Origin: Xanthomonas arboricola | Lineage (GTDB): Bacteria > Pseudomonadota > Gammaproteobacteria > Xanthomonadales > Xanthomonadaceae | Reading direction: 5' to 3' | NCBI RefSeq assembly: GCF_002940665.1 | Contig: NZ_MIGY01000001.1 | Location: 310,001 to 374,000, forward strand | Length of the DNA: 64,000 nt | Shown: positions 2,802-17,749 of the stretch, piece by piece | Position numbering within the stretch: the first letter of the stretch is position 1 | Layout of the letters: each line of letters begins with the position of its first letter | Made by a program: the position numbers and the translations under genes | Notes under the pieces: generated by a model | Seen by the model: the letters and a program-made list of their open reading frames with translations, nothing else | The model's database searches: none | Told to the model about the DNA's origin: nothing

Positions 2802-3181
2802 GGCGGTGCGAGGGCAGCAAGATTGACGCCTATTGTGGGCGCATCGCGCCTGCTTCGCCTATGCGCGGCGGCTGACAGGTCCGCGCGCGCTGCCAGGACC
2901 TGCGGCTGGCGCCCGGAAAGCGTGCTGCGCAATCGCGCCCGCCCCCCTGACGGCACGCCGCGCGACACCGTGGTGTTCTCCCACGTTGCGCGCGTGCTCC
3001 TGGGCGTCCTTGCGTCGCCGACGCCTGGCTGCCAAGCGCTCGCCACGTTCGCTTGCAGCCGTTCTCCACGCCGCGGCGGGTGTCGGTGCTGCTGCGTGCA
3101 GCCGACGGGCGCCGCGCAGGAATGGTTTCAGTCCATGCGGATCGGCCCGATGCGCGGGCCCGAATGCTACGATCCCTGCGC
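2802..3181. other. Divergent pdxH/aroK intergenic region
   Basis: 380 bases between two divergently transcribed genes. Reading frames here have no protein-like composition. It must hold the pdxH promoter (minus) and the aroK promoter (plus). Only a -10-like TACGAT close to the aroK start is obvious. Confidence 0.6.
3168..3173 (+). promoter_or_regulatory. -10-like box TACGAT just upstream of aroK
   Basis: TACGAT ends eight bases before the aroK ATG (3182), so transcription would begin at or next to the start codon. There is no good -35 hexamer 17 bases upstream. The same arrangement occurs before the genes at 5027 and 26842. Confidence 0.4.
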
Positions 3182-3724
3182 ATGAACCCCGCTCCCAATC
3201 TCGTGATGGTCGGCCCGATGGGCGCCGGAAAAAGCTGCATCGGCCGCCGCCTGGCCGAGCGCTTCGGGCTGGAGTTCGTCGATGTGGACCAGGCCATCGT
3301 CGAGCAGGTCGGCAGCAGCATTCCGGCCATTTTCGAGCAGCATGGCGAAGCGCGGTTCCGGCAGCACGAGGGCCAGACCCTGCAGACGCTGCTGGAGCAG
3401 GACAACAAGCTGATTTCCACCGGCGGTGGCGCGGTGCTGGATCCGCTCAACCGCCAGCGCATCCGCGAGCGCGGCTTCGTTGTGTACCTGCACGTCAGCG
3501 TGCCGGCACAGCTCACCCGGCTGGCGCGCGACCGCAACCGGCCGCTGTTGCAGCGCGCCGACCGCGAGCAGGTGCTGCACGCGATGGCCGCGCAGCGCAC
3601 CCCGCTGTACCAGGAGGTCGCCGACCTCAGCCTGGAAACCGATCACTTCTCCCCCGCCGAGGCCACCGCGCAGCTGGTGCTGCGCCTGGCCGCGCAATGG
3701 CGTATGTCGAGTACCCCCGCATGA
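3182..3724 (+). CDS. aroK: Shikimate kinase
   Basis: 180-residue P-loop kinase that phosphorylates shikimate to shikimate 3-phosphate in chorismate/aromatic amino acid synthesis. Seen in order: Walker A GPMGAGKS (about residues 11-18), FVDVDQ with the shikimate-binding Asp, RFRQHEG with the shikimate-binding Arg, the STGGGAVL glycine loop, and the lid RDRNRPLL. The start at 3182 is the first one in line with the family N-terminus; the open frame upstream to 3053 is Arg-rich and unlikely. The stop overlaps aroB by four bases (ATGA), an order (aroK-aroB) common in gammaproteobacteria. Confidence 0.95.
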
Positions 3725-4833
3725 CACTTTCCCGTTCCTCGCGCAGCGTCGATGTCGACGGTGCGCAGCCGTACACCATTACCATTGCGCCCGGCCTGCT
3801 GGCCGACGGCGCGCGCCTGGCCAGCCATGTGCGTGGCCGCCACGCATTGCTGCTCAGCGACTCGCAGGTGGCCCCGCATTACGCCGCTGGCCTGCGCAAG
3901 GCGCTGCTGCAGGCGCGCCCGGACCTGCAGCTGGGCGAGCTGGTGATCGCCGCCGGCGAGGCTTCCAAGACGCTGGACAATTTCGGCGCCGCGATCGCGG
4001 CATTGGCCGAGCTGGGCGCCACCCGCGATGCCTGCGTATTCGCGCTCGGCGGTGGCGTGGTCGGCGATCTGGCCGGGTTCGCGGCGGCCTGCTGGATGCG
4101 CGGGGTGGACTGCGTGCAACTGCCCACCAGCCTGCTGGCGATGGTGGATTCCTCGGTCGGCGGCAAGACCGCGGTGGACATCCCGCAGGGCAAGAACCTG
4201 GTCGGCGCGTTCCATCCGCCACGCGCGGTGATCGCCGATACCGACACCTTGCACACCCTGCCCGCGCGCGAGCTGCGCGCCGGGCTGGCCGAGGTGATCA
4301 AGTACGGCGCCATCCGCGACCCGCTGTTCTTCCAGTGGCTGCATGCCGAACGCCGCGCGCTGCTGGAGGGCGATGCCGACGCGCTGGCACAGGCGATCGC
4401 GCGCAGCTGCGAGCACAAGGCCGACATCGTGGCGCGCGACCCGCTGGAAAAGGGCGAGCGTGCCCTGCTCAACCTGGGCCACACCTTCGGCCATGCGATC
4501 GAGACCGAACAGGGCTACGGCGCACCCGGCAACGACAACCTCAACCATGGCGAAGCGGTCGCGGTGGGCATGGTGCTGGCCGCCCGGCTGTCGGCCGCGC
4601 TGGGCATGAGCGATGTGCAGGACACCGAGGCGCTGCGTACCCTGCTGCACGAGTTCGACCTGCCGACCGCCATTCCGCCCGGCCTGTCGCCGCAAGCCTT
4701 GCTGGGGCGCATGCGGCTGGACAAGAAGAACATCGCCGGCCGCCTGCGGCTGGTGTTGTGGCGCGGCATCGGCAAGGCCGAGGTGGTACCCGATGTCGAC
4801 GAGGCGGCAGTGCTGGAAATCCTGGCGGGCTGA
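3721..4833 (+). CDS. aroB: 3-dehydroquinate synthase
   Basis: 370-residue NAD- and metal-dependent enzyme converting DAHP to 3-dehydroquinate, an early step in the shikimate pathway. Diagnostic segments are present: [21 protein letters not shown], the [19 protein letters not shown] motif, the lysines and Glu of GLAEVIKYG, and the metal ligands in [12 protein letters not shown] and [10 protein letters not shown]. Length and C-terminus are normal. It starts at the ATG overlapping the aroK stop, so the two are co-translated. Confidence 0.96.
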
Positions 4834-4866
4834 GCAACGCCATCACTCACTTGTCTCCGGCGCATT

Positions 4867-4936
4867 CGTAGGAGCGCCCCCGGGCGCGACAGGGCCTTGC
4901 CGGTAAATCCCCATCGCGCCCAGGTGCGCTCCTACG
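4867..4936. repeat. REP-like inverted repeat
   Basis: The segment begins CGTAGGAGCGC and ends GCGCTCCTACG, with inner arms CCGGGCGCGAC and CGCGCCCAGG, so a long imperfect hairpin spans about 70 bases downstream of aroB. GTAGGAGCG-type palindromes of this kind are scattered through Xanthomonas-type genomes (from memory). It may also serve as the aroB transcription end. A different but similarly ended element is at 53041-53107. Confidence 0.7.
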
Positions 4937-5013
4937 CATTGCCTGCCAATGCCCCCTTCGCAACCGGAGCAACCCGGCGCGCCCACTGCTCCCAGCCTTC
5001 AGCACCGCCCGGC

Positions 5014-5019
5014 TACAAT
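5014..5019 (+). promoter_or_regulatory. -10-like box TACAAT before the WGR gene
   Basis: A near-consensus TACAAT ends eight bases before the ATG at 5027, which would give a message with almost no leader. No -35 match is seen at the usual spacing. Confidence 0.45.
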
Positions 5020-5026
5020 CGGCGTC

Positions 5027-5278
5027 ATGCGCATCCACTTGCAACACGATCCTGGCGGCAACGCGCCGCTCCGCTACGTCCAGCTGACCCTGCAACCGGA
5101 TCTGTTCGGCGGCTGGGAGCTGCTGCGCGAGAGCGGCGAGATCGGTGGACGCTCGCAGTTGCGACGCGACCAATACCTGCTGCAGGACGAAGCGGACCGG
5201 GCCTTCGACAAGGCGCGCGACACCCACCTCAAACGCGGCTTCCAACTCATCACCGGCGGCGCCGACGCGCCGCGCTGA
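5027..5278 (+). CDS. WGR domain-containing protein
   Basis: 83-residue protein consisting of one WGR-type domain: aromatic/hydrophobic strands [24 protein letters not shown] followed by a helix ([19 protein letters not shown]). In place of the canonical W-G-R it has G-G-W and GEIGG, so the eponymous triad is partly altered. In bacteria these small stand-alone proteins are of unknown function; in larger proteins the domain is linked to nucleic-acid binding. It lies eight bases upstream of hemE on the same strand and is probably co-transcribed with it. The ATG at 5027 is preferred because the domain starts there. Confidence 0.75.
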
Positions 5279-5286
5279 GGAACACC

Positions 5287-6351
5287 ATGCTCAAGAACGA
5301 TCGCCTGTTGCGTGCCCTGAATCGCCAGCCCGTCGACCGCACCCCCGTGTGGCTGATGCGCCAGGCCGGCCGCTACCTGCCGGAATACCGCGCCACCCGG
5401 GCGCGCGCGGGCAGCTTCCTGGGCATGGCCAAGAACCCCGAGATCGCCTGCGAAGTGACGCTGCAGCCGCTGCAACGCTTTCCGCTGGACGCGGCGATCC
5501 TGTTCTCCGACATCCTGACCATTCCCGATGCGATGGGCCTGGAGCTGTATTTCGTCGAAGGCGAAGGCCCCAAATTCCGCCACCCGGTGCGCGATGCCGC
5601 CGCGATCCATCGGCTGGGCGTGCCGGACATGGAAACCGAGCTGCGTTACGTGATGGATGCGGTGCGTTTGATCCGCCGCGAGCTGGACGGCGCGGTGCCG
5701 TTGATCGGCTTCTCCGGCAGCCCGTGGACGCTGGCCTGCTACATGATCGAAGGCGGCGGCAGCAAGGAATACGCGCGCATCAAGGCCATGGCCTTCAACG
5801 CGCCGGACGTGCTGCATCACCTGCTCGGCACCGTCACCGATGCGGTGATCGCCTACCTGTCGGCGCAGCGCGCGGCCGGTGCACAGGCGCTGCAGGTGTT
5901 CGACACCTGGGGCGGCGTGTTGTCGCCGGCGATGTACCGCGAATTCTCGCTGCCCTACCTCACCCGCATCGCGCGCGAGCTGGAACGCGGCGACGGCGCC
6001 GAGCGCACCCCGCTGGTGTTGTTCGGCAAGGGCAACGGCGCCTATGTGAGCGAGCTGGCGGCCAGCGGCGCCGAAGCGGTAGGCGTGGACTGGACCATCT
6101 CCCTGGCCGACGCCGCCCAGCGCGCCGGCGGCCGCGTCGCCCTGCAAGGCAACCTGGACCCGGCCACCCTGTACGGCTCGCCCGAGGCGATCCGCGCCGA
6201 GGTCGGCAAGACCCTGGACAGCTACGCACAAGGCAACGGCGGCTCGCGCGAAGGCCATGTCTTCAACCTCGGCCACGGCATGTCGCCGGATATGAATCCC
6301 GAACATGTGGGTGTGCTGGTGGAAGCGGTGCAGACGCTGAGCAAGCGGTAA
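5287..6351 (+). CDS. hemE: Uroporphyrinogen decarboxylase
   Basis: 354-residue cytosolic enzyme that removes four carboxyl groups from uroporphyrinogen III to make coproporphyrinogen III in heme biosynthesis. Signatures include [16 protein letters not shown] (substrate-binding arginines, about residues 18-33), [14 protein letters not shown] with the catalytic Asp, [20 protein letters not shown], and the C-terminal [16 protein letters not shown] with its conserved His. The length matches the family. The start codon follows a GAGGAACACC stretch that can act as a ribosome-binding site. Confidence 0.97.
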
Positions 6352-7145
6352 GGCCAAGGCACGGGTGGACAGCGCACCGGTGTGCTGTCCACCGCCGCTC
6401 AACGCGCGCACCCGAGTAGCGCGCGCTGAGCGTGATGACGGGCGGTGGCTGCATCAGCAATAGATCGGCAGCACCGCCGGGACGTCTCTGCTGCTGCCAG
6501 GCCACCCCAGGCACGCGGCACAGCGACGAAGGCAGTCTTCAGCGATCGCAAGGCCAGCCTCCATGCCTTCACCCGCATCGCGTCTGCATCCGCTCCAAAC
6601 ACGGCCTGCCCGCCTCGTTCCGTTGAACGTTATTCCGCCACCCCAGTGATGTGCGGCAGTGAGCACCCTGCCGACGTCACTGCGAGGTGATGCGCGCCGC
6701 GCTCAACCGCACTGCGGTCAATCATCGATGCGCCTGGGCTCCGGTTTCGCAAGGCTCCGACAGCGTGTCGGCTGGCCATTGACTTGCCGCAAAGAATCGC
6801 CAAGCGGACGCGAGCTTTCCTGCCTTGCGTCAAGAGCAGCCTGTGCCCGCCTGTTCCGCATGGTCTTTGTGTAACTCCCTTCGCGATTCCCCGCGACATT
6901 CCCCGCACGCCGTTCCAAAACGCGTCATTACCTCGCATACCGCTCTAAAGCGGATCGGCTTCACGTCGATAAGCCCGGCATTGCCGTCGTTTAAACCAAT
7001 TTTTCCGGAGCAAGGAGATCTACTGTTTCTCCACGGTGATGCGGTGCCACTGCAACACATCTCCGGACAGGCAGGCCGCCTGCCGAACCTCGACATCGTC
7101 ACGTTTGTTCAAACGCTTCACTCATTCGAGAACAAGGAGAAACGC
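6352..7145. other. Long non-coding stretch between hemE and the R-body locus
   Basis: 794 bases in which no open frame looks like a protein. It contains a GC hairpin just after hemE (6364-6393), a perfect 7-bp-arm hairpin at 7070-7084 (arms GGCAGGC/GCCTGCC), and a strong Shine-Dalgarno AAGGAG before 7146. The part from about 6870 is less GC-rich and probably carries the R-body promoter and leader, but I could not assign a convincing -35/-10 or -24/-12 pair. Confidence 0.55.
6364..6393 (+). terminator. Hairpin downstream of hemE
   Basis: GGTGGACAGCGCAC pairs with GTGTGCTGTCCACC (one G-U pair) around a two-base turn, 13 bases past the hemE stop. There is no T-run, so rho-independent termination is uncertain; it may be a 3' stabilising hairpin. 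Confidence 0.45.
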
Positions 7146-7439
7146 ATGGCATTTCCAACCGCCGTCAACGACCAGATCACCGACTCCGTCACACAAGCCA
7201 ATACCAAGGTGCTGGGCGATGCCCCCGCCATCGCCATGGGCAATCTGTACCAGGCAACCGCGCAGGCGCTGGCCAATGCCGCCCATAACGCGACCAATGC
7301 GCAGCAGCAGAGTTATGTCACCGCGCAGTCGGCCACCACCATGGGCGTGGCCACGCTCTACTCCATCGACACCGCCACCACCGGGGTTGCAACCAAGCAG
7401 GTTCTGAGCACCGGCGTGCCTGGGCTCGTCTCGCGCTAA
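7146..7439 (+). CDS. RebB family R-body protein, copy 1
   Basis: 97-residue protein of the RebB ('killing trait') family, the building block of R-bodies: coiled ribbon polymers first known from Caedibacter that unroll and puncture membranes. Hallmarks are the NDQITDSVTQAN opening, KVLGDAPAIAMGNLYQ, then the Ala-rich helix AQALANAAHNATNAQQQ and the short tail TMGVATLYSIDTA. It differs from copy 2 at only a few positions, but its last ten residues (STGVPGLVSR) are different and longer. The AAGGAG upstream of the ATG is strong. First gene of the tandem array. Confidence 0.9.
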   Translation: MAFPTAVNDQITDSVTQANTKVLGDAPAIAMGNLYQATAQALANAAHNATNAQQQSYVTAQSATTMGVATLYSIDTATTGVATKQVLSTGVPGLVSR

Positions 7440-7461
7440 CTCGAATCTTTAGGAGAAGAAA

Positions 7462-7731
7462 ATGGCATTTCCGACTGCAGTCAATAATCAGATCACCGAT
7501 TCCGTCACCCAGGTCAATACCAAGGTCCTGGGCGATGCACCGGCAATTGCAATGGGCAATCTGTATCAGGCAACCGCACAAGCGTTGGCCAATGCTGCCC
7601 ATAACGCGACCAACGCGCAGCAGCAGAGCTATGTCACTGCGCAGTCGGCCACCACCATGGGTGTGGCCACCCTGTACTCCATCGACACCGCCACCAGCGG
7701 CGTCGTTACCAAGCAGATCCTGGGCGTCTGA
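7462..7731 (+). CDS. RebB family R-body protein, copy 2
   Basis: 89-residue RebB homologue, nearly identical to copy 1 through most of its length (NNQITDSVTQVN versus NDQITDSVTQAN; TSGVVTKQILGV at the end). The DNA is also similar, so a recent tandem duplication or gene conversion is likely. It is preceded by TAGGAGAAGAAA as ribosome-binding site and lies 22 bases after copy 1. R-body assembly elsewhere needs more than one RebB-type protein, so copies with small differences may play distinct structural roles (inference). Confidence 0.9.
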   Translation: MAFPTAVNNQITDSVTQVNTKVLGDAPAIAMGNLYQATAQALANAAHNATNAQQQSYVTAQSATTMGVATLYSIDTATSGVVTKQILGV

Positions 7732-7761
7732 CGGCCCGGCTAACGCCAAGGACATCCGCCA

Positions 7762-8028
7762 ATGGCATTTCCCACCGCCGTCAACGACCAGATCACCGAC
7801 TCGGTTACCCAGGCCAATCTGCAGGTATTGGGAAGCGCTCCAGCCGCAGCCATGGGCAATCTGTACCAGGCCACCGCGCAGGCGCTGGCGAACGCGGCAC
7901 ACAACGCAACACTCGCGCAACAACAGATGTATGTCACCGCACAGGCAGCAACCACGATGGGCGTTTCGCTGCTGTATTCGCTCGATACCGGCGCCACGGG
8001 TGCCGCCACCAAGAAGATTCTCGGCTAA
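7762..8028 (+). CDS. RebB family R-body protein, copy 3
   Basis: 88-residue RebB homologue. It keeps NDQITDSVTQANLQVLG, AMGNLYQATAQALANAAHNAT and the Gln run, but is more diverged than copies 1 and 2: LGSAPAAA replaces LGDAPAIA, LAQQQMYVTAQAAT replaces NAQQQSYVTAQSAT, and the tail reads SLLYSLDTGATGAATKKILG. It sits 30 bases after copy 2. The conserved DAPA motif is altered to SAPA, which may mark a specialised subunit. Confidence 0.88.
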   Translation: MAFPTAVNDQITDSVTQANLQVLGSAPAAAMGNLYQATAQALANAAHNATLAQQQMYVTAQAATTMGVSLLYSLDTGATGAATKKILG

Positions 8029-8080
8029 CCGCTAACGCCGCAGCGTCTTCGTTCTTTCACTATCTCAAGGAGCTATCACC

Positions 8081-8353
8081 ATGGCCTTTCCGACCGCCGT
8101 CAACAGCCAGATCACCGATTCCGTTTCCCAGGTCAATACCAAGGTCCTCGGCGATGCGCCGGCGATTGCAATGGGCAACCTGTTCGTTGCCACCAGCCAG
8201 GCGCTGTCCAACGCCGCGCACAACGCCACCAACAACCAGCAGCAGTCCTACGTGACGATGCAGGCATCGACCACGCAGGGCGTGTCCACCCTGTATTCGG
8301 TCGATACCGCATCCGAAGGCGTCGCCACCAGGCAAATCCTCGGTCTGACCTGA
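8081..8353 (+). CDS. RebB family R-body protein, copy 4
   Basis: 90-residue RebB homologue preceded by AAGGAGCTATCACC. It retains NSQITDSVSQVN, KVLGDAPAIAMGNL and NAAHNATNNQQQSYVTM but has FVATSQALS where the others have YQATAQALA, and ends GVSTLYSVDTASEGVATRQILGLT. It closes the run of four typical RebB genes; the following genes are more diverged or unrelated. Confidence 0.88.
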   Translation: MAFPTAVNSQITDSVSQVNTKVLGDAPAIAMGNLFVATSQALSNAAHNATNNQQQSYVTMQASTTQGVSTLYSVDTASEGVATRQILGLT

Positions 8354-8459
8354 TCGGCCACCGGGCGCCGCTGCTGCCGCACGAGCGGCGCCCGGTTGAC
8401 TAAGCGATGTGATGCCAACCCCACGCGGTTTCGTTGATCGAATCGAGAAAGGACGCCTC

Positions 8460-8795
8460 ATGCTGCAACTACGTCATATCCCGACGTCCAACACCCTGGA
8501 CGTCGTCGTCAGACTGATCCGGGGCCGCACCATTGTGGCGACGTTCGCGCCGCACCAAAAGGCAGTGATCAACGTCGAGTTCGACGGCATCCTGCCGGTG
8601 ATTCCCGGCGCGCAGCCGTTGGTCTATCGCCAGAAGCTGGATAGCGTTATCAACCTGCCGCAAGGCAACTTTGCATTCCTGGAACGCGTGCCCGATGGCG
8701 TGGCCTTGCAGTACGCGTGCAGACACGAACCACAGAACACCGTGCTGTTCTCGGCGTCGGCTGGCGTTGAACAGCGCAGGCCGTCGTTGGCCTAG
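8460..8795 (+). CDS. Unrecognised small protein of the R-body locus
   Basis: 111-residue protein that I do not recognise. It looks like a compact beta-rich soluble domain (alternating hydrophobics in LDVVVRLIRGRTIVATFAP, KAVINVEFDGILPVIPG, LVYRQKLDSVINLP). No signal peptide or membrane segment. The ATG at 8460 is chosen because GAAAGGA lies seven bases upstream; the in-frame ATG at 8409 has no such site. It is enclosed between RebB genes on the same strand with short spacing, so a role in R-body assembly, regulation or immunity is an inference from position only. Confidence 0.7.
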   Translation: MLQLRHIPTSNTLDVVVRLIRGRTIVATFAPHQKAVINVEFDGILPVIPGAQPLVYRQKLDSVINLPQGNFAFLERVPDGVALQYACRHEPQNTVLFSASAGVEQRRPSLA

Positions 8796-8818
8796 AACGC
8801 CGACGCCAGTGCCCCGTC

Positions 8819-9064
8819 ATGGAGCCAAGCGCGCAGGCCGCAAGCGTCGCCAGCCTGGTCGGCACTGCCGCTACAGGCGCGGCGATGGCCATCGGGCAGG
8901 CGCCGGCCTTCGCGATGGCGGCGACCTATCTGGCGCTGTCGGACTCCATCGCCCTGGCAATGGAAAACGCGGTTGCCAATCAGCAGCGCGGGCAGGTGCT
9001 TGCCGATGCAGCTCTCACCCAGATCCTTGCCTTAATCATCCAGAAGGGAGCGACTTCGTCATGA
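8819..9064 (+). CDS. Diverged RebB-like protein
   Basis: 81-residue Ala-rich protein. Although the N-terminus is different, the core follows the RebB pattern: IGQAPAFAMAATYLALSDSIALAMENAVANQQRGQ matches the DAPAIAMGNLYQATAQALANAAHNATNAQQQ region in spacing and chemistry. It ends in an ATGA overlap with the next RebB-like gene, indicating translational coupling. It probably co-assembles with or caps the polymer (inference). Confidence 0.72.
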   Translation: MEPSAQAASVASLVGTAATGAAMAIGQAPAFAMAATYLALSDSIALAMENAVANQQRGQVLADAALTQILALIIQKGATSS

Positions 9065-9726
9065 TCGACGACAGTAGCGTGAACAGCCAGATCGTCGATG
9101 CGGTGAGCAGCATCGTCACGCTGACCACCGGTCAGGCACCCGCACAGGCGCTCGGCATGCTCGATGCCGTGATGCTGGAGACGCTGGGCATGGCGATGCA
9201 CAACGCCGTCAACCGGCAGCAAGGCGCCGGCATGATCAATGCAGCAGCGATCACCGCCGCCTGCGCCAAGATGATCTCGGCACCGTTCCCGGTTCTGCCA
9301 CCACTACCACCGCCTGCGCCACCCGGACCACCACCTACGGTTGCGCCGTTGCCTGGCCCTCCCCCTGTACCGCCCCCGCCGGCAGCGCTCATCGCCGCCG
9401 CCGCGGCGGAAGCCAAGGTGGCCGTCGACGTGCTGAAGACGCAAGCACAAGGCGCCTCGGCAGATGCTGCGACCGCCACCGCCGACCTCATGGAAGTGCA
9501 TGCGCTGAGCGTCCCGCCGCCCCTGCCCGCCACTCCCCCCGCCCCCGGCGCCGGCCCCGATCATGCTGCCACTCCTGATGCTCCTGCTGCTGCACCGGCA
9601 ACTTCACCCGCAGCTGCAGCTGCTGGCACACCCCCTGTTGTTGCTGCATCTGCACCTGCTGCTCCTGCTGCACCTGCATCTGCATCTAGCTCTGCACCTG
9701 CACCTGCGCCGCCTGCTCAGTCGTAG
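9061..9726 (+). CDS. RebB-like domain with long Pro/Ala-rich tail
   Basis: 221 residues. The first about 75 form a RebB-like domain (NSQIVDAVSSIVTL, GQAPAQALGMLDAVM, GMAMHNAVNRQQGAGM). After it come a proline-rich segment with PPLPPPAPPGPPP-type runs (about residues 79-110), an Ala-rich helical piece (about 111-145), and a final low-complexity Pro/Ala/Ser tail. The DNA of the tail is repetitive (CTGCACCTGC-like units), prone to slippage. The design suggests an anchor or linker on the R-body, or a surface for cargo, but no function is established. The ATG overlaps the previous stop by four bases. Confidence 0.75.
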   Translation: MIDDSSVNSQIVDAVSSIVTLTTGQAPAQALGMLDAVMLETLGMAMHNAVNRQQGAGMINAAAITAACAKMISAPFPVLPPLPPPAPPGPPPTVAPLPGPPPVPPPPAALIAAAAAEAKVAVDVLKTQAQGASADAATATADLMEVHALSVPPPLPATPPAPGAGPDHAATPDAPAAAPATSPAAAAAGTPPVVAASAPAAPAAPASASSSAPAPAPPAQS

Positions 9727-9805
9727 GCCGTCTGCAGAGATGAGGTCAGCCACCCCTACCACCAGGCCTCATTGAAAGGCGGCCGATCATTCCATAGGAA
9801 CCAAG

Positions 9806-10153
9806 ATGGAACCGACAAAGGTCAATGCGCAGGTCATCGATGTCATCAACCAGGTGCAGCTGGCGACCATGAGCCCGCAGGTCGTGCTGACCAGCGGAGC
9901 CGGCAAAGCCTACCAATCGGTGGCGCAGTCCACCGCCATTGCGGTGCAGGACGCCACCGACGCGTTGCGCAATGTCTCCACGATCGCAACCACGGCCGTT
10001 GGTGTGGCGATGGCGCAGTACCTGGCCACCGGCGATGACAAGTACGTCACCGCACTCACCCAGGCGCAGGCGCTGATGCAGGGCGCCACCGACGACTTCG
10101 CCAGGATCGGTTCGGCGGCCGGGCTGGTGCTGAAGAATTTCCCCGCTGGTTGA
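9806..10153 (+). CDS. Diverged RebB-like protein
   Basis: 115-residue protein. VNAQVIDVINQVQLATMSPQVVLTSGAGKAYQSVAQSTAIAVQDATDALRNV parallels the RebB layout (NxQITDxV opening, a central Ala/Gln helix, N-A-T-type motif), and the tail adds about 25 residues (GATDDFARIGSAAGLVLKNF). Ribosome-binding site AGGAACCAAG precedes the ATG. Assignment rests on pattern rather than strong identity, so it may be a distant RebB relative or an independent helical partner. Confidence 0.65.
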   Translation: MEPTKVNAQVIDVINQVQLATMSPQVVLTSGAGKAYQSVAQSTAIAVQDATDALRNVSTIATTAVGVAMAQYLATGDDKYVTALTQAQALMQGATDDFARIGSAAGLVLKNFPAG

Positions 10154-10172
10154 CCTCACAAGGAGTCATGCA

Positions 10173-11243
10173 ATGTCCGTTTCGATCGCAGGCCGCCTGA
10201 TCTCGATGCCGACGATGCTCTCGACGCTGGGCAGGCAGTGCCTGGCCTTCATCGATGGAGGCACGCAGTGGCTGGCATGGGCGATCCAGTCGCCCGGTGT
10301 GCGCTATGACTTTCCCGACGAGAGCAGCTTGCTCGACGAGGTGCAGCAAGGCCTGCACGGCTCGCGCCTGGCCTTGTTGCCGCAGCTGGAACTGAAGGTC
10401 AGCCCGGTCAAGCTGATGACCTTTAGCCCGACCGACCTGGCCACGCTGGCGCAGGCAGAGGCCGGCGACACCGGCTCGGTGGTCAAGGCGCAGCTGCAGC
10501 GCATCTTCCGTGACAACGCCCTGTACACCGCAAGCGACCTGGCCGCAGGCCGCAGCCTGCTGACACAGCTGAAGATCGATGGCGCCGGCGTGTTCCAGTC
10601 GCTGGACCTGGAAGAAAGCCTGGCGCTACGCCAACTGGCCGCAGACGCGCCGCCGGCCAACGTGACGCCGGCACTGCAACAGGAGGCAGCGGCTTTCGCG
10701 GTCGAGCAGGCGCGCACGCCGCTGGAATTCTGCGATTACTACCGCTTCTACCTGGCCTGCAGCGCCACCATCGCAGCTGCGGACGAGCGCGCGCATGCGG
10801 CGGCTTCGGCGCTGCAGACGCTGTTGCCGCAGCTGTTCACTACCCTGGACTGCCCACAGGTCCAGGGGCTGCCTTCGCCCAACGAGGTCGAGCGCAGCGT
10901 GGCCGAATGGCTGGCACGCGGTCGCCAGATCGGCTTCGCGCGGCTATCGCTAGCGGCCCAGCAGATCGTCCAGCACACCCGCTACCGAGGCGAAGGCGAC
11001 GACCAGGCAGCGAGCGACGCGATCCGCCTCTACCTGCAGTCGGCGCAGGCATTCCTGGCGGCCAACCGGCCCAGCCGTGGGGTGCTGGGCCAGGACGGCA
11101 GCAGCTGCATGTTCTCCATGCACAACGACACCCTGGCTGCGCTGCTGCAGGTCAACAACGGCGTCATCTCGCTGCGCGACTTCGGTGCCGCACCTGCATC
11201 ACCCACCACCTCGCAAGACACGGATGCGGAGGCCACGCAGTGA
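10173..11243 (+). CDS. Unrecognised 356-residue protein of the R-body locus
   Basis: I do not recognise this family. The protein is soluble and mostly helical, with no signal peptide or membrane segment. A short N-terminal region (residues 1-50, including QCLAFIDGGTQWLAWAIQSP) precedes a mixed segment and a helical C-terminal half with four-helix character (CDYYRFYLACSATIAAADERAHAAAS, AEWLARGRQIGFARLSLAAQQIV). AAGGAG stands eight bases before the ATG. It follows the last RebB-like gene by 19 bases and overlaps the next gene by four bases, so it belongs to the same transcription unit. It is the largest protein in the locus and a candidate scaffold, chaperone or effector. Confidence 0.7.
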   Translation: MSVSIAGRLISMPTMLSTLGRQCLAFIDGGTQWLAWAIQSPGVRYDFPDESSLLDEVQQGLHGSRLALLPQLELKVSPVKLMTFSPTDLATLAQAEAGDTGSVVKAQLQRIFRDNALYTASDLAAGRSLLTQLKIDGAGVFQSLDLEESLALRQLAADAPPANVTPALQQEAAAFAVEQARTPLEFCDYYRFYLACSATIAAADERAHAAASALQTLLPQLFTTLDCPQVQGLPSPNEVERSVAEWLARGRQIGFARLSLAAQQIVQHTRYRGEGDDQAASDAIRLYLQSAQAFLAANRPSRGVLGQDGSSCMFSMHNDTLAALLQVNNGVISLRDFGAAPASPTTSQDTDAEATQ

Positions 11244-11860
11244 GCGCACCGCCGCCGCCTGCTGCGGCCGGCGACCAGGCCCCGCTTGCGACCAGCGCCG
11301 CCGACGCGGCGCGCGAAGCGGTGCATGCAGGTCGCGCCGCTGCCCTAGCGGCCGCACGCCAGGGCATGGCGCAGGCCGAAAACGCACTGGGTGAGAGGCT
11401 GCGCGCGCTTGCAGCGCAGCGCCCAACCGAAACCGCACCACTCGCCGCGCCGATGCGACCATCGCGTGCCGATGCCGTCACCCCGCTCCATTCCGCGTCC
11501 ACTTCAGGAGATACCAGCATGTCCGACGATACTCAGCCCACGCCCCCGGACCAGACACCAGCCTCCACTGCGCAATCGTCAGGATCCTCGCAGATCGAAG
11601 CGGCGCTGAAAGCGGCGCAAGCCCAGATCGATCAGGCGATGGCGGCCAGCGATAGGGCAGTACGGGCGGCCATGCAGGCCGCAACCGCCGCGACCGCCGC
11701 AGCTGGCAATGACCAGGCGATCGATAGCGCAAACCAGGCACTGCAGCAGGCCGAACAGGCCGCCGCTGCGGCGGTGACCGCCGCGCAGCAGCAGACCGAG
11801 CAGGCAATGGCGGCGACGTCGCCGGCCACTCCGAACGCCGACGACGGAATAGCCAGCTGA
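11240..11860 (+). CDS. Ala/Gln-rich coiled protein (GTG start; possible internal start at 11519)
   Basis: 206 residues from a GTG that overlaps the previous stop (GTGA). The first half is Pro/Ala-rich. The second half is a low-complexity Ala/Gln helix (QIEAALKAAQAQIDQAMAAS and repeated ANQAL/QQAEQAAA units) likely to form a coiled coil. An in-frame ATG at 11519, with CAGGAG eight bases upstream, could give a 113-residue shorter product beginning MSDDTQPTPPDQ. Both may be made. No known domain; its role in the R-body operon is inferred from position and overlap. Confidence 0.6.
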   Translation: MSAPPPPAAAGDQAPLATSAADAAREAVHAGRAAALAAARQGMAQAENALGERLRALAAQRPTETAPLAAPMRPSRADAVTPLHSASTSGDTSMSDDTQPTPPDQTPASTAQSSGSSQIEAALKAAQAQIDQAMAASDRAVRAAMQAATAATAAAGNDQAIDSANQALQQAEQAAAAAVTAAQQQTEQAMAATSPATPNADDGIAS

Positions 11861-12033
11861 CGGAGCGATGCGTTTCGGCGTTGCGATGAAGCCGGTCTCG
11901 CGATGAACCCGTCCGGTCTCATTGGCGCCGGTCTGCCGGCTCCCCGCCGCCACGTTGATCCAGCAGCGCAGCTCCACTTGCCGCGGCCATCTAGCCCCGG
12001 CCCAGCCAACGCCCGATCCGAAGGAATTCCGAC

Positions 12034-12720
12034 ATGACCTTCTACACAGGCTTCGACACCGATCAATTCCCCGGATTGCCCGCCCTTGACTGGCTCAAGA
12101 CCCAGGCCGAGCTGGCGTGGTGCGGCTACTACCTGGCACCGGCGCCAAGCCATGCCGACACCGGCTGGATGGGCCAACGCGCTGCGTTGATCGCACAAGG
12201 CTGGGGCCTGGCGCCCGTCTACCTTGGTCAGCAGACGGTCGGCCCCGGTTCGCACGACGTCACCGCCCGGCAGGGCAGCCTCGATGGTGCACAGGCCGCA
12301 GCGCTGGCACGCGCCGAAGGCTTTCCCGATGGCGCGGTGGTCTATCTCGACTGGGAAGATGGCGGCAGCCCGCCACAGGCAGCCATCGACTACATCCGTA
12401 TGTGGATCGCCGCGCTGTTGGGCAATGGTTTTTCGCCCGGCCTGTACTGCTCGCACGCGCGCGCAGTGGAACTGCTGTCGCGGATCGGCCCCCGCCCCTC
12501 CCCGCGCGTCTGGGCCTGGCGGGTCTCCACGGCAGGGCGTCACCTCTACGCCGGCGACATCCGGCACGTCCAGCCCTCCGATCCGGCCGACTGCGGCTAT
12601 TCCCAGGCCATGCTCTGGCAATACGAACAGGATGCGGTGCTGTCGCTTCCTGGTACGCCGTGCGATGGGCTGGAAGTTGACCTCAGTTATTCGAGTTTAG
12701 CCGATCCGAGCTCGGCGTGA
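12034..12720 (+). CDS. DUF1906-type glycoside-hydrolase-like protein
   Basis: 228-residue protein without a signal peptide. It has the layout of the DUF1906/Rv2525c group of TIM-barrel proteins related to GH25 lysozymes: FYTGFDTDQFPG at the N-terminus, an acidic strand VVYLDWEDGG (about residues 106-115), GFSPGLYCSH, VWAWRV, LWQYEQD and the closing GLEVDLSYSS. Members are thought to act on cell-wall glycans, though activity is shown for few. CCGAAGGAATTCC precedes the ATG. Its place directly after the R-body genes, without an export signal, raises the possibility that it is carried or released by cell lysis or R-body action (inference). Confidence 0.72.
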   Translation: MTFYTGFDTDQFPGLPALDWLKTQAELAWCGYYLAPAPSHADTGWMGQRAALIAQGWGLAPVYLGQQTVGPGSHDVTARQGSLDGAQAAALARAEGFPDGAVVYLDWEDGGSPPQAAIDYIRMWIAALLGNGFSPGLYCSHARAVELLSRIGPRPSPRVWAWRVSTAGRHLYAGDIRHVQPSDPADCGYSQAMLWQYEQDAVLSLPGTPCDGLEVDLSYSSLADPSSA

Positions 12721-13327
12721 TTGCGCGTATTTCCTGCATCGGGAAAAAGCAGAAACCCATAAACTCCAGCAATGCATGAAGATCCCTTGCAACCAACCCG
12801 ACACTCCCTGCATCGATAGACGACACCACGCATCACCCCACTTTCCCCCGCACTGATTCAATGCATTAAACGACCGGATAAGCGCATCACCTGCGTCATC
12901 AATCCGCCAACGCACTCGTCGAAACCAGGCCAAAGCCGAATCCGGATCAACGCCTGGTGCGGACCTACCTCCATGGAATCACATCAATATTCCATAGCAA
13001 CCCTCGCCCAAAGGGCCCTGCAACGATTGGCTAGCGCCCTCGGAAAGAATAATAACTGTGACTTTCCCCAATAAAGTATAGAGAAATCGGCGGTATTACT
13101 AAACGCTCCGACACCCCTGTCCAAGAGCCCACGTCTGTATCGAGCGTGCATACGCGTATCCCCGCAGACCGGGATCATGCCGATCTAACCGCATAAAACC
13201 TAGCGCCTGCAGCAGCCAGCCCACGAGTACGCATTACCGCAGCGGCAAGAGAACTCCGCCATCAGGTCGCTCGATCTCGGTACGACATATGCCGGCCTGC
13301 ACCTTCCGCCCCGAAAGGAGATGTGAA
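12721..13327. other. AT-richer non-coding stretch
   Basis: 607 bases with clearly lower GC than the surroundings. It contains a dyad ATGGAAT/ATTCCAT at 12973-12995 and an AT-rich patch around 13045-13110. The longest open frames are on the minus strand and have no protein-like composition. An AAAGGAG ribosome-binding site before 13328 ends it. It probably holds the promoter for the genes at 13328 and 14175. Confidence 0.5.
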
Positions 13328-13951
13328 ATGACAGTAATAGTTGATTTGATGTCAGAACAAACCAATTCCGTCGGCATCGCAGGCATCTCACGACACCAAG
13401 GACGTTGGAGGCACCGGCCAGACATGCGCTATGAAGTCGACCCCGACCCGACCTTGATCGCTTGGACCGAGCAAAACATGGGAATCGGATCCTCAAGATT
13501 ATCGCGCTCCCCCCTGTTACAGCAATTTACAGGTCATACGGCCGTTCTGTCTCGTCTTCGCGGGCGGGTCCAGTTCGTCAGGGGACTGGTACCGAATGTG
13601 TCGGGTTATCCATGGGCGTTCTTTGGCCAAGGCGGTGGAGGCCACTGGCAAGATGATAGCGCCATGCTTGACGACCCGACCTGCGTCAGTTTCGAGATAC
13701 CTGTAACAGAGGAGGATGCCGGAAATTTCCCGCGATGGTTCCGTGCTGTGGCTCCGGAAATAAATGTCTTCGCACTGAAGAATGGTGACGGATTCAATAG
13801 CTTCAATTGCGTCCTAGCTTCTCTCACGCTGCTCATCAACTACCTTCTCGAGTCGGAGAACGACTATTCATCCTATGTCATCCAACTGACAAAAGTACGT
13901 GACTCGCTTCAAGGCCATTTGATGCAAAACATCATGGGTGGATTTATATAA
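13328..13951 (+). CDS. Orphan protein next to the lipase-like gene
   Basis: 207-residue soluble protein that I do not recognise. It starts after GAAAGGAGATGTGAA, a strong ribosome-binding site. The sequence has a Gly/Trp-rich middle (YPWAFFGQGGGGHWQDD) and a C-terminal helical region (FNSFNCVLASLTLLINYLLES, then KVRDSLQGHLMQNIMGGFI). There is no signal peptide. Codon use and GC are lower than in nearby core genes, hinting at horizontal acquisition together with the downstream lipase-like gene (224 bases away, same strand). It could be an effector, a cognate immunity protein or a chaperone; nothing in the sequence decides. Confidence 0.65.
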   Translation: MTVIVDLMSEQTNSVGIAGISRHQGRWRHRPDMRYEVDPDPTLIAWTEQNMGIGSSRLSRSPLLQQFTGHTAVLSRLRGRVQFVRGLVPNVSGYPWAFFGQGGGGHWQDDSAMLDDPTCVSFEIPVTEEDAGNFPRWFRAVAPEINVFALKNGDGFNSFNCVLASLTLLINYLLESENDYSSYVIQLTKVRDSLQGHLMQNIMGGFI

Positions 13952-14174
13952 ATCCACCACATGACACGCCCGCCGCAATCACAACCCCGGTCAACAGCAG
14001 TGCATTGAATAATCACGCAACTCGACTACAGCGAAAGTTTAGCAGAAAAAGCCACATTTCACTCCATGAATGCATCAAGAGTTCACCCTCATACCACCGT
14101 AGTGCACGAGCCCCGTAATCCACACATAGATTAATACAACGACCCAACCACCCGAGATTATGGAGACATCAAGA

Positions 14175-15392
14175 ATGTCAACATTCACAGTATTTTTTTG
14201 CGGGACAGGATCGAACAGCCTGGATTACGACAGTGCAAACTACAGCGAAGGACAGCTTATCTCCACATTGGCACGCAACCATCTCGGGGTGGAGTTCGAT
14301 GATTGGCTCATAGCGGATGGACCGGGCAGCGGGAATCAACAAGAAAACGATAAATGGACACTCCCGGGGAACTACACTGATGCTCGGGGCACCACTTTTG
14401 GCTCGGGCTGGGAGGAGAACGTCAAGCACGCGATTGCGGTGATCAAGAAGGACCCCAGCCATATGAGGACCTTAATGACAGATGCGGAAATACGCATCCT
14501 ACAAAGGGAAAAGGCAGCTGCCGAAGCAGCTGGACTTGAGCCGCAGAACACTTTTGGTGGCTGGACCCCTGCCAATAGGCACCGAAAAATCGTTCCCCAA
14601 GCTTTACAAAAGGCGCGAGCAAAAGTCCTGCGAACACCACTGCCTGACCGCGTCAACCTCATTGGCTGGAGCCGTGGCGCAGTTACCTGCCACATGATGG
14701 CCAATGCAATGTATGCCGACCCGCAGCTCCGCCACATCTGCGTCAACATTTTTGCGATAGACCCGGTACCCGGTCCTTTGAATTTCCAGTTAAACAGGAC
14801 AACACTGAATACCAACGTGCTGGAATACCGCGCCGTATACGCACGCGATGAGAGGGCGCGCGGCTTTACTCCGATCATCCCGGACGTAAAAGTAAAGAAG
14901 GAACTAATCCTCATGCCTGGTGCCCATGCGACCCTTGTCGGAAACGCATCCAAGAATGGCAAGGGCGGCGGCAACCAGATCTTTCCGGAACCAGGACAAA
15001 TGGTGCGGCATCTTGCGGAGACATTCCTGCGGGATAATGGGACGCAGCTCGGCTCATGCCTGAATCTGAAGGATACCGGCTTATTGGAACTCTACGAACA
15101 AATTCTCAAGGACGATAGAAGCTACATCGCAATGCGGCAACTGGGCTACGGCATGGGATGTGTGGAAACGGAAAGCGGAGACCGATGGGCAGCCGTGGGT
15201 TCCGGTGCGGTTGTTGCGGGCCTGACATCGCTACCGATGCTGCACCCCGATCCGATCTTTGTAAATTGGCACCATCGCAGTGTTTACATCAAGCACTATG
15301 CCGATCTGACAGGAAGGCCGGAGGCCATTGAAAGGGACTTGCTGGCTCAGTGGTTCCCGGTAACCACAGGGCGGTTCATTAGTCGTCCCTGA
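14175..15392 (+). CDS. Lipase-like alpha/beta hydrolase (DUF2235/Tle-like)
   Basis: 405-residue protein. An N-terminal strand-loop FFCGTGSNSLDYD is followed later by the nucleophile elbow NLIGWSRGAVTC (GxSxG, about residues 162-166), then FAIDPVPG with a likely catalytic Asp, and candidate His residues in LMPGAHATLVG. This order resembles DUF2235-type and type VI lipase effector (Tle) hydrolases. No signal peptide or transmembrane segment. The ATG at 14175 is preferred because GGAG sits nine bases upstream; an ATG at 14160 lacks one. Lower GC than flanking genes. It may be a phospholipase toxin; substrate and delivery route are unknown. Confidence 0.7.
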   Translation: MSTFTVFFCGTGSNSLDYDSANYSEGQLISTLARNHLGVEFDDWLIADGPGSGNQQENDKWTLPGNYTDARGTTFGSGWEENVKHAIAVIKKDPSHMRTLMTDAEIRILQREKAAAEAAGLEPQNTFGGWTPANRHRKIVPQALQKARAKVLRTPLPDRVNLIGWSRGAVTCHMMANAMYADPQLRHICVNIFAIDPVPGPLNFQLNRTTLNTNVLEYRAVYARDERARGFTPIIPDVKVKKELILMPGAHATLVGNASKNGKGGGNQIFPEPGQMVRHLAETFLRDNGTQLGSCLNLKDTGLLELYEQILKDDRSYIAMRQLGYGMGCVETESGDRWAAVGSGAVVAGLTSLPMLHPDPIFVNWHHRSVYIKHYADLTGRPEAIERDLLAQWFPVTTGRFISRP

Positions 15393-15793
15393 AAGACGTC
15401 ACTCGCCCGACCGCCCCAATGCGTTACAGGCAGCCCAACCGTGCCACAACTGCGCTTTTTCGCTACGCTGGACCTGATCGCTAGCAATCCGGGACCATCC
15501 TTGCACTGCCGTACCCGTGGCCGAATGATGCCAGCTCGTTGTCGGCAGCGCAGGAGTGAAGCGGGATTGGACGGATTGCTGACGCACGCGATCGATGCCG
15601 CGCATGTAGTAGAGGTAGAGACAGCCGATGGGCACGACCCGGCGCGGGCGATCTTTTCGGGCGCCGCAAGTCGCCACCCCAACCAATCGGTGCTTGAATA
15701 GAATTTTTTCTGAGAGGCGGCGCATTTGTAAGCAACCGCATGCTGGGCCCAGCCGATGAACCCAGCACGAAGTTGGGGCCTCATATCTGACGG
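15393..15793. other. Intergenic stretch, no gene recognised
   Basis: 401 bases between the convergent lipase-like gene and the AraC-type regulator. Several open frames on both strands cover it (for example 15347-15784 minus) but none has a recognisable domain, a good ribosome-binding site or convincing composition. I see no clear terminator hairpin with a T-run. Confidence 0.5.
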
Positions 15794-17317
15794 TCAATCC
15801 TGGCCATAGACCCTACGGAACTCACGCGGGCTTACCCCAACCAGCCGCCGGAAGCTCTTTTCGAAATGGCTCAGGTCGCCGAAGCCGACCTTCAGCGCCA
15901 CTTCGGTGATGCGCAGCTTGCGTTGCCGCTGCAGAAGCTCCTTGGCCTTTTCGATGCGTAGCTGCTGCAGCATCGGTTTGAACGGGGTACCGAGTTCGTC
16001 GCGGAACAGAAAGCCCAGATGCGACTGGCTAACGTGCGCCTGCCGGGCCAGATCGCCCAGGGTCAGCGGCTCGGCGTAGTGCTCGCCCAGATGCACCAGG
16101 GCGCGCCGCAGCGCGTCGTGCAGGCTGGCGAGACGTTGCCCGGGGCGATGCGGAAGGCCGTCGATCCAGTCGACCGGCGTTTCCGGCGGCGTGGGCTCTG
16201 CCGGAGGATCGGCCTGTCGCGACACCGTGGCGCGCGCATCGTGCTGCGCTCCTTGCGCCCGGCCTTCCAGCAGACGCGGTGCGTGGCGCTGGATGTCGGC
16301 GCTGCCGACCGGCCTGCCTGCAGTCATGACCGCCAGGCGCAGCACCACCCGCTCCAGCTCCTGGAGGTTTTCCGGCCATGGGTAGTGCGTCAGGGCGTCC
16401 ATCAACACCTCGGTGACCACCTGACCGTGATCCAGGCCATGCCGATCCAGCACATGCTCGACGTGAAAGCCGATATCTGTCCGCCGGGTGCGCAACGGCG
16501 CGAGCTCGATTGCCAGGACATCCAGTTGCGACAGCAGCGCGCGTGAGAAGCGTCCGGCATGTACGCGGCGCGACAGATCAGCGGTCGTGGAGGCGATCAC
16601 CCGCGGCAAGGCCCCGCCGCCCGAGATAGCCCACGGTGTGGACCTGCCCCGAAGATGCACTGCAAGTTGATGCTGTGGCGCGTCGTCGAGCTCATCCACG
16701 CCCTGCAGGAACAGCGTTCCTCCCATTGCGCGCTCGAACCATGTTGCCGGCATGTCGTCGGGAGCGGCGCAATCGACCGCAACGAACGGACCCTCTCGCC
16801 AGGGTGCAGCTGCATGCAGCAAAACGGCCACCTCCTCTTTCTCGGTGCCGAACTCGCCGCGCACGATGACTGGCAAACGACTGTCTGCGGCCTGCTCGAC
16901 GAACGCATCGATCATCCAGACTTCTTCGCAGACCCCCGTCATCATCAAAGATCGAGCGAGCCGGTCTTCCGCCAACCTCCGCGCTGCATCGCGCTTGATC
17001 AGGTACGCACAACATTTTGCGATCTGCCGACACAGCGTCATCGCCTGCGCGGCCATGCCGCCGTGGGCCGGGGTCACGTGCAGCGTACCGAGCACTTGCC
17101 TGGCGTGCTGGACCGGAAAACACCGCACAATCGTTGCCTGATCGTTCGCCTGATCCGGAGCAAGCGGATCGCTTTGCGCTACCCCGACGAACGCGCATGT
17201 CGCACCGTTCAAGATCTCGCTCTGCGATAGTTCCGCAGCGATCTTGCCGAGCATTGCCGCCAAGGGATCGCCCGGGAGATAGGCGCGCTGCAATACGTCT
17301 AAGACCTGCTTTTCCAT
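15794..17317 (-). CDS. Regulator: GAF-like region, degenerate NtrC-type AAA+ domain, AraC helix-turn-helix
   Basis: 507 residues from the ATG at 17317 (an in-frame ATG at 17467 would add 50 residues; neither has a clear ribosome-binding site). Residues about 1-140 look like a GAF-type sensor. Residues about 150-370 align with sigma54 activator AAA+ domains (GPFVAVDCAA, GGTLFL, PLRTRRTDIGFHVEHVL, YPWPENLQELERVV), but Walker A reads GEFGTEKE instead of GESGTGKE, Walker B has GGTLFLQG, and the GAFTGA loop is deleted. The C-terminal about 100 residues are an AraC/XylS DNA-binding domain (LTLGDLARQAHVSQSHLGFLFRDELG, ITEVALKVGFGDLSHFEKSFRRLVGVSPREFRR). It therefore probably works as an AraC-type activator of sigma70 promoters, likely of the adjacent R-body genes (inference). 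Confidence 0.82.
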   Translation of the reverse strand: MEKQVLDVLQRAYLPGDPLAAMLGKIAAELSQSEILNGATCAFVGVAQSDPLAPDQANDQATIVRCFPVQHARQVLGTLHVTPAHGGMAAQAMTLCRQIAKCCAYLIKRDAARRLAEDRLARSLMMTGVCEEVWMIDAFVEQAADSRLPVIVRGEFGTEKEEVAVLLHAAAPWREGPFVAVDCAAPDDMPATWFERAMGGTLFLQGVDELDDAPQHQLAVHLRGRSTPWAISGGGALPRVIASTTADLSRRVHAGRFSRALLSQLDVLAIELAPLRTRRTDIGFHVEHVLDRHGLDHGQVVTEVLMDALTHYPWPENLQELERVVLRLAVMTAGRPVGSADIQRHAPRLLEGRAQGAQHDARATVSRQADPPAEPTPPETPVDWIDGLPHRPGQRLASLHDALRRALVHLGEHYAEPLTLGDLARQAHVSQSHLGFLFRDELGTPFKPMLQQLRIEKAKELLQRQRKLRITEVALKVGFGDLSHFEKSFRRLVGVSPREFRRVYGQD

Positions 17318-17749
17318 TATTAGTCCGACCTGATCAACGGCGCGCTCAGAAGGCGGCCATACCCAAGTCGCGCCATCCCTGACCAGACCGTCGGCAAAGC
17401 TCCAAGAAATGAATTCCGCTTTTAGGTTCAACGCTCCCCCACCTCCCGCTCGATCGATCCATCGCAACGTGGAATGACCCTCGCCTGCCTTGTCTGGACC
17501 CGTCGGAGGAGCGAAGGATTCGCCAGCGAATCAAACGCTTGTTGCAAGCCATGGCGGGCATTAGCACGCCACCATTCCCCTTTCCCGACGATTCGTGGCA
17601 GGTGGCCGACCTTGAATGCGATTGGTTGAAGCGCGTCTCATTCGTTACCGGCACATCGGTGCGTTGCTGCGACGGACTCAAGCAACGACGTGCCGCATGC
17701 CGTTGCGACCTCCTGCACAGCGGCGCAGGGATAATGCGCTGTCTTCCCT
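17318..17749. other. Divergent regulator/exporter intergenic region
   Basis: 432 bases. Open frames crossing it are not protein-like. Up to 150 bases at its left end may belong to the regulator if the start at 17467 is used. A GATAAT at 17730 could be part of the exporter promoter, but no -35 is placed correctly. Confidence 0.45.

Follow-up and report, generated by a model that had tools for sequence, protein, structure and literature searches.

R-bodies are coiled protein ribbons built by RebB proteins, which unroll on a trigger such as low pH, rupture membranes and can burst cells. The reb locus of Xanthomonas arboricola raises the question of whether such a ribbon is made alone or together with proteins that it sets free. 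The stretch of DNA analysed here (the window) comprises 64,000 nucleotides of contig NZ_MIGY01000001.1 (assembly GCF_002940665.1; positions 310,001 to 374,000, forward strand), and almost certainly holds an R-body locus. An earlier note, made from the sequence alone, had confined this locus to ten genes at 7146..11860. These limits are too narrow, as the conserved unit extends from approximately 6964 to 17467 and includes a space filled with exchangeable genes, here termed the slot, as well as a fusion of a sigma54-activator-like AAA domain and an AraC-type helix-turn-helix (HTH) domain, which is very probably the unit's own regulator. The preferred reading is that of a modular R-body system of the published Group 1 kind, with ribbon genes, a regulator and a swappable payload, to which a probability of about 0.5 is assigned. 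The unusual part of the locus is the exchangeable slot with the regulator, both of which lie outside 7146..11860, and the number of genes and their companions are already known.

Fourteen named loci and further stretches were compared, and membership of the RebB family was defined by a PF11747 score above the curated cut-off of 24 bits. Co-occurrence was assessed mainly in 35 Xanthomonas genomes, where the regulator was counted as present at E ≤ 1e-50. The slot was surveyed in twenty loci carrying both the regulator and the Group 1 protein HP1.1 (encoded by C2 in the window). Twelve of these, including that of the window, are from Xanthomonas and the others from alpha-, beta- and gammaproteobacteria, and the loci are not independent of one another. 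The hemE gene and reb block are visible in ten of the twelve Xanthomonas loci, with the remaining two (L015 and L020) starting at a contig end before B7.

The slot in Xanthomonas

The slot is the space between the last operon gene, C3, and the regulator. Three genes occupy it in the window, all on the forward strand. These encode a glycoside-hydrolase-like (GH) protein of 228 amino acids (aa; 12034..12720; PF08924, 54.2 bits against a cut-off of 27.2), a 220-aa protein matching no family (x220; 13289..13951, with a possible start at 13328) and a 410-aa alpha/beta-hydrolase-like protein (x410; 14160..15392). The last matches PDB chain 4m0m (E 2.2e-7) and shows a GxSxG motif by eye, with no Pfam match, and both x220 and x410 lie in DNA of lower G+C. 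Seven of the twelve Xanthomonas loci (L013, L015, L017, L018, L020, L021 and L024) carry a NUDIX, a GH and a 594-aa gene in this order, while the slot of L019 holds GH and a 609-aa member of the 594-aa family. GH and one other gene are found in L014 (347 aa), L023 (191 aa) and L016/G140 (394 aa), the last across a contig break, as the L016 contig stops behind GH and the regulator of this genome (G140) lies on a second contig. The 594-aa protein resembles a nucleotidyltransferase by eye only, and a profile search of the PDB gave one match, at E 0.84.

A slot gene and the regulator are linked to reb loci. Among the 35 Xanthomonas genomes, HP1.1 is present in fourteen, the regulator in twelve, PF08924 in twelve (one match each) and the 594-aa family in eight. 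PF08924 and the regulator occur in exactly the same genomes, all of which are HP1.1 carriers, and the 594-aa set is nested in both of theirs. The two HP1.1 carriers devoid of the regulator and GH are deletion remnants, L022 and L034, in which one RebB gene and HP1.1 are left together with fragments; a fragment of the regulator occurs in L022, and none was found in L034. The Fisher values for the set overlaps (1.1e-7, 1.2e-9 for the regulator and PF08924, and 2.1e-5) overstate this linkage, because phylogeny is ignored. A search of 72,556 plasmid records for the 594-aa family gave a single match, sited in the reb locus of the betaproteobacterium Eleftheria terrae. The slot contents are also exchanged. 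The identity values of HP1.1 and GH are uncorrelated (r = 0.06; 66 pairs from twelve loci), and between the window and X. euroxanthea the identity is 96 % for HP1.1 but 69 % for GH. Slot and chassis have therefore been exchanged and have separate histories.

Exchange of this kind might also be expected of a neutral insertion hotspot, where foreign genes unrelated to R-bodies are simply tolerated between the operon and the regulator. The great diversity of the slot contents would suit such a site, as would the reduced G+C of the slots of the window, L014 and L023, the three empty slots among the twenty loci, and the occurrence of x410 relatives on plasmids and elsewhere. It accords poorly, however, with the presence of PF08924, as a single match each, in the same 12/35 genomes as the regulator, with a ratio of nonsynonymous to synonymous substitution rates (dN/dS) of 0.14-0.17 for GH in three comparisons, and with the gene order kept in Eleftheria. 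There the order of reb genes, HP1.1, NUDIX, GH, a 583-aa gene and the AraC-type regulator is as in Xanthomonas, with identities of 64 % (GH) and 56 % (594-aa protein). A neutral hotspot is considered unlikely.

The slot beyond Xanthomonas

Seventeen of the twenty slots are filled, with NUDIX, glycoside-hydrolase-like, alpha/beta-hydrolase-like, phospholipase-D-like (PLD-like) or HNH-like proteins, or with proteins of no family. Four of seven matching plasmid records of Azospirillum were examined, three of which hold slot genes for proteins of 1155-1173 and 266-295 aa. In A. brasilense the slot is filled in one strain and empty in another, Sp7, where a gap of 0.5 kilobases (kb) compares with 4.8-4.9 kb and the flanks are 91 % and 87 % identical to those of MTCC4039. 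A genome of another gammaproteobacterial family (G433) encodes an HP1.1 of 26 % identity, with HNH-like and PLD-like proteins in the slot and an x410 relative immediately beyond the regulator. In L025 and L033, which are of the Stenotrophomonas type, HP1.1 and the regulator are only about 0.5 kb apart. Two genes precede the reb block in L025 (3468-6171), one a relative (34 % identical) of the NUDIX gene in the Xanthomonas slot and the other encoding a 559-aa protein. In L033, genes resembling a functional-amyloid (Fap-like) cluster with a C39-type peptidase are located immediately upstream of the reb genes (2979-7273).

In wider sampling, HP1.1 was found in 4/149 genomes of the family, 8/398 of the order and 2/369 of the class. 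RebB matches occurred in 4/369 class genomes and in none of fourteen control genomes. Relatives of x410 (E 1e-4) are present in ten of the 369 class genomes. Each of the two class genomes with HP1.1 has such a relative within its reb locus or next to it; one of them is the genome of the window, so that G433 alone is independent. On a Serratia plasmid (L043, 5192-8149), the x410 relative is flanked by two hypothetical genes which, by eye, are similar to pore-forming toxins, with integrase genes further out. A Vibrio locus (L045) encodes, after the reb genes, a 1174-aa protein that matches a type VI secretion system effector family at 156.4 bits (cut-off 150) and VasX_N at 78.7 bits. The effector-family gene is followed by genes for two similar 297-aa proteins (19922-21738), which look membrane-bound by eye and are possible immunity proteins. 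In a Photobacterium locus (L046), a gene that is transposase-like by eye follows the reb genes.

The contents of the slot bear on two further explanations. As GH is encoded in all twelve Xanthomonas loci with the regulator while the next gene varies, and a PF08924 protein, going by the family name, could act on the cell wall, the slot proteins may be accessories of R-body production or self-lysis, such as a wall-loosening glycoside hydrolase, rather than toxins directed at other cells. No relative of GH was, however, detected in the Azospirillum, G433 and Stenotrophomonas-type loci, so that it is not needed for R-bodies generally, and the contents vary like payloads; an accessory role is judged unlikely. 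The HNH protein of G433 is PtuB-like according to PADLOC (4.8e-37), and weaker matches for the PLD-like and NUDIX proteins also point towards a small site for anti-phage defence or for mobile-element cargo. Against this, seven of the ten slot proteins scanned singly, including the three of the window, gave no PADLOC match at 0.01, and no PtuA partner is apparent by eye among the G433 genes listed. A defence or cargo site appears highly improbable.

A number of observations weigh against the slot being a payload. Both Stenotrophomonas-type loci and A. brasilense Sp7 have an empty slot, which is therefore not required, and twelve of the twenty loci are from a single genus. No signal for export or for targeting to R-bodies came to light in the slot proteins, and the loci lack an evident immunity gene, save perhaps those for the two similar Vibrio proteins. 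HP1.1 was undetected in the Vibrio locus, as in that of Photobacterium, and the Vibrio effector gene may be part of a type VI system instead. Only two of the ten class genomes with x410 relatives carry HP1.1, and integrase genes lie near the x410 relative on the Serratia plasmid. The lower G+C of the window's slot (0.571 against 0.651) also fits a plain insertion site. Many slot proteins are without family, and PADLOC matches were obtained for three of the ten scanned, that of the HNH protein being strong. NUDIX, PLD-like and glycoside-hydrolase-like domains furthermore occur in housekeeping proteins. With these points considered, a payload function of the slot is given slightly less than even odds. 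The wider proposal that Group 1 R-bodies form a modular delivery system, in which a conserved ribbon chassis, a regulator and a dedicated payload slot are spread across the alpha-, beta- and gammaproteobacteria, is put forward tentatively.

The regulator and upstream repeat

The regulator is encoded on the reverse strand at 15794..17467, with a possible start at approximately 17317, and matches HTH_18 (85.2 bits) and Sigma54_activ_2 (66.8 bits). Sigma54 activators of the NtrC type have a canonical GAFTGA motif and an intact Walker A motif. None of nine regulators compared has a GAFTGA-like motif and Walker A is altered in eight, with L037 retaining GEFGSGK; for these reasons they are not taken for sigma54 activators. 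The regulator adjoins the reb loci of Xanthomonas, both Stenotrophomonas-type loci, Eleftheria, Azospirillum and G433. In Vibrio and Photobacterium, relatives lie upstream of the reb genes, the AAA match in Photobacterium falling short of the Pfam cut-off.

A direct repeat with a 21-bp register (6964..6997, forward strand) upstream of A1 is the proposed site of the regulator. It was found by eye in an alignment of ten Xanthomonas upstream regions, some of which have substitutions. The pattern was scanned in five Xanthomonas and four other loci, and the same pair is not present in the latter four. One match occurs in the window compared to 0.02 expected, a count which shows uniqueness and not function, because the pattern was derived from the window. 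A scan for promoters and terminators gave no more sites than shuffled sequences.

The reb operon and companion genes

The ten open frames at 7146-11860 are on the forward strand and packed closely, with a purine-rich stretch upstream of most. The earlier note had read them as an R-body locus with four typical and three diverged RebB proteins, and had proposed a hidden Markov model search with PF11747. This search bears out the R-body locus: six of the ten operon proteins scanned are RebB family members (47.5-108 bits), and these are six of the seven proposed. They include the four typical proteins A1 (97 aa; 7146..7439; 105.9 bits), A2 (89 aa; 7462..7731; 106.2 bits), A3 (88 aa; 7762..8028; 102.3 bits) and A4 (90 aa; 8081..8353; 108.0 bits), as well as the diverged B5 (81 aa; 8819..9064; 47.5 bits) and B6 (221 aa; 9061..9726; 73.8 bits), the latter combining a RebB domain with a proline/alanine-rich tail. 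The third diverged protein, B7 (115 aa; 9806..10153), did not hold up, as PF11747 gives no match. The B7 family aligns weakly to the Reb profile over 52 columns in its N-terminal half (hhalign probability 84.5 %), which would make it a remote RebB relative at best.

The motifs and overlaps described for these small frames are present. QITDSV occurs in all four of A1-A4, and LGDAPAIAMGNLYQ and NAAHNATNAQQQ are exact in A1 and A2, with one or two changes each in A3 and A4. The spacing is tight, with an ATGA overlap at 9061-9064 (B5/B6) and a GTGA overlap at 11240-11243 (C2/C3). In comparison to four other Xanthomonas loci, dN/dS is 0.00-0.14 for A1-A4 and 0.10-0.22 for C2, and the genes are therefore under selection. 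Profile searches at E 0.5 found no PDB relative of Reb or HP1.1. A phage origin was rejected, with no Reb match among 50,697 phage records and none of the viral contigs yielding a confirmed relative of HP1.1 or Reb. Seven RebB matches occur in the genome, six of these inside the window and one orphan approximately 25 kb past its end (L035, 6241-6690; C1:399336-399539, minus strand; 97 bits). The neighbours of the orphan resemble carbohydrate enzymes by eye, and no slot lies alongside. A distant extra Reb is also reported for X. axonopodis (Raymann 2013, PMC3583457).

Three further genes accompany the Reb block. C1 (111 aa; 8460..8795) has no Pfam or NCBIfam match and is restricted to Xanthomonas among the loci examined, being present in all ten that cover the site, with no match in L025, L033, L037, L040 and L041. 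C2 (356 aa; 10173..11243) belongs to no family and has relatives in other genomes; the predicted HP1.1 model is poor (mean pLDDT 58.4) and unsuited to a fold search. C3 (206 aa; 11240..11860) is alanine-rich, and its GTG start, which overlaps the C2 stop, is kept in three of four loci tested, the coordinate tried for the fourth being off. Its dN/dS is 0.34-0.48, where the L019 start used was off. In Azospirillum and G433, C3 has no sequence match and is assigned by position and composition only. Four further HP1.1 loci are without an intact regulator, namely L022, L034, L026 and L032. By eye, a C3-like tail is fused to HP1.1 in a single gene in L026 (9001-10494) and L032 (7819-9144), and both genomes have an HP1.1 homolog and no RebB match. 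The flanking genes of L026 are, by eye, shared with the L025 reb locus, and L026 may be a relic. Reb loci in which HP1.1 was not detected were viewed for contrast (L038, L039, L057 and L058, the last two by annotation only).

Comparison with known R-body systems

One to nine Reb homologs per genome have been reported, and a search for partner genes listed hypothetical proteins, some of them Reb-like (Raymann 2013, PMC3583457). The Group 1 synteny includes HP1.1 (~360 aa), HP1.2 (~110-120 aa), HP1.3 (Reb-like, about double length) and HP1.4 (Reb-like, ~60-80 aa), in taxa that include Xanthomonas and an Azospirillum plasmid (PMC3583457). The window shares with it several RebB homologs and HP1.1-HP1.4, as C2, B7, B6 and B5 (356, 115, 221 and 81 aa) match these in size, order and published description. 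Judged from such sequence features, the cluster at 7146-11860 is of the known Group 1 kind. Extra Reb copies were accordingly rejected as a novelty, and the suggestion that seven Reb-like proteins with three companions imply a different structure or function is unsupported, such numbers and HP1 companions having already been published.

The Group 1 locus of the window is larger than in the descriptions consulted and, in the preferred reading, modular. The AAA-AraC regulator, the NUDIX, GH and 594-aa genes and the variable slot are features of the loci compared here that go unmentioned in the text of PMC3583457 covered, and the R-body and RebB literature covered yielded no description of the slot or the AAA-AraC regulator. 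HP1 proteins are there limited to Reb-harbouring taxa (PMC3583457), whereas two HP1.1 carriers are here without a RebB match. A recent classification distinguishes a primary Reb group 1 from the secondary groups S1, S2 and S3 (Dorr 2026, PMC13430693). The proline-rich C-terminal extension of S2 resembles the tail of B6, B7 fits S3, and the study excluded non-Reb neighbours such as HP1.1 (PMC13430693). Group 2 loci encode HP2.1 and HP2.2, which are frequently accompanied by a sigma factor and a regulator of the cyclic-nucleotide type. No sigma-factor or Crp-type match was obtained among the operon and slot proteins scanned, and the regulator is of the AAA-AraC type. The Crp/Fnr and sigma-factor pattern is seen, by annotation only, in a Burkholderia plasmid reb locus.

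Dedicated regulators also accompany the R-body genes of Pseudomonas aeruginosa PA14, where the cluster comprises RebP1/RebP2, RebD, RapA, the sigma factor FecI2 and RcgA, with no AAA-AraC regulator mentioned in the text used (PMC8322103). The R-bodies of PA14 contribute to nematode virulence, and a 'kamikaze' release of other products has been speculated upon (PMC8322103). The delivery of ribocin via R-bodies is regarded as possible there, with the reservation that it works from E. coli as well (PMC13189344). The reb operon of Azorhizobium caulinodans likewise has its own activator, but differs from the window in its four reb genes, the Crp-Fnr family activator RebR and repression by PraR (PMC5527310). 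R-body formation in Azorhizobium accompanied the death of host plant cells (PMC5527310). Caedibacter taeniospiralis type 51 has RebA/RebB homologs and a killer trait with an unidentified toxin (PMC8322103), with a small plasmid-borne set in which alone RebC is found (PMC3583457). Reb genes of Lysobacter are lowered by two signals (PMC8416617), and two RebB-like genes are tabled among Pythium-responsive genes (PMC5459918).

Proposed mechanism and significance

In the proposed modular system, A1-A4 and B5-B7 would make the ribbon, and HP1.1 (C2) and C3 would act as a pair with the reb block, perhaps as scaffold or adaptor. The AAA-AraC fusion at the far end, which has no sigma54-contact motif, would switch the operon on, probably via the direct repeat upstream of A1. 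A sub-population may then make ribbons and slot proteins together, and the ribbon would unroll when a predator or host cell takes up the bacterium, breaking membranes and releasing the enzymes. From the observed linkage, exchange and enzyme-like domains, we infer that R-bodies may set the slot proteins free and that these may then act on other cells.

What does the killing once R-bodies have lysed a cell is, according to the literature, still unidentified (PMC8322103). Should the proposed system be real, the slot genes would be candidates for the missing killer toxins. With a fixed position, different enzymes in each lineage and an adjoining dedicated regulator, they are named candidates that can be easily tested in culturable bacteria. 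The modular arrangement would also explain how one ribbon machine may serve against different targets.

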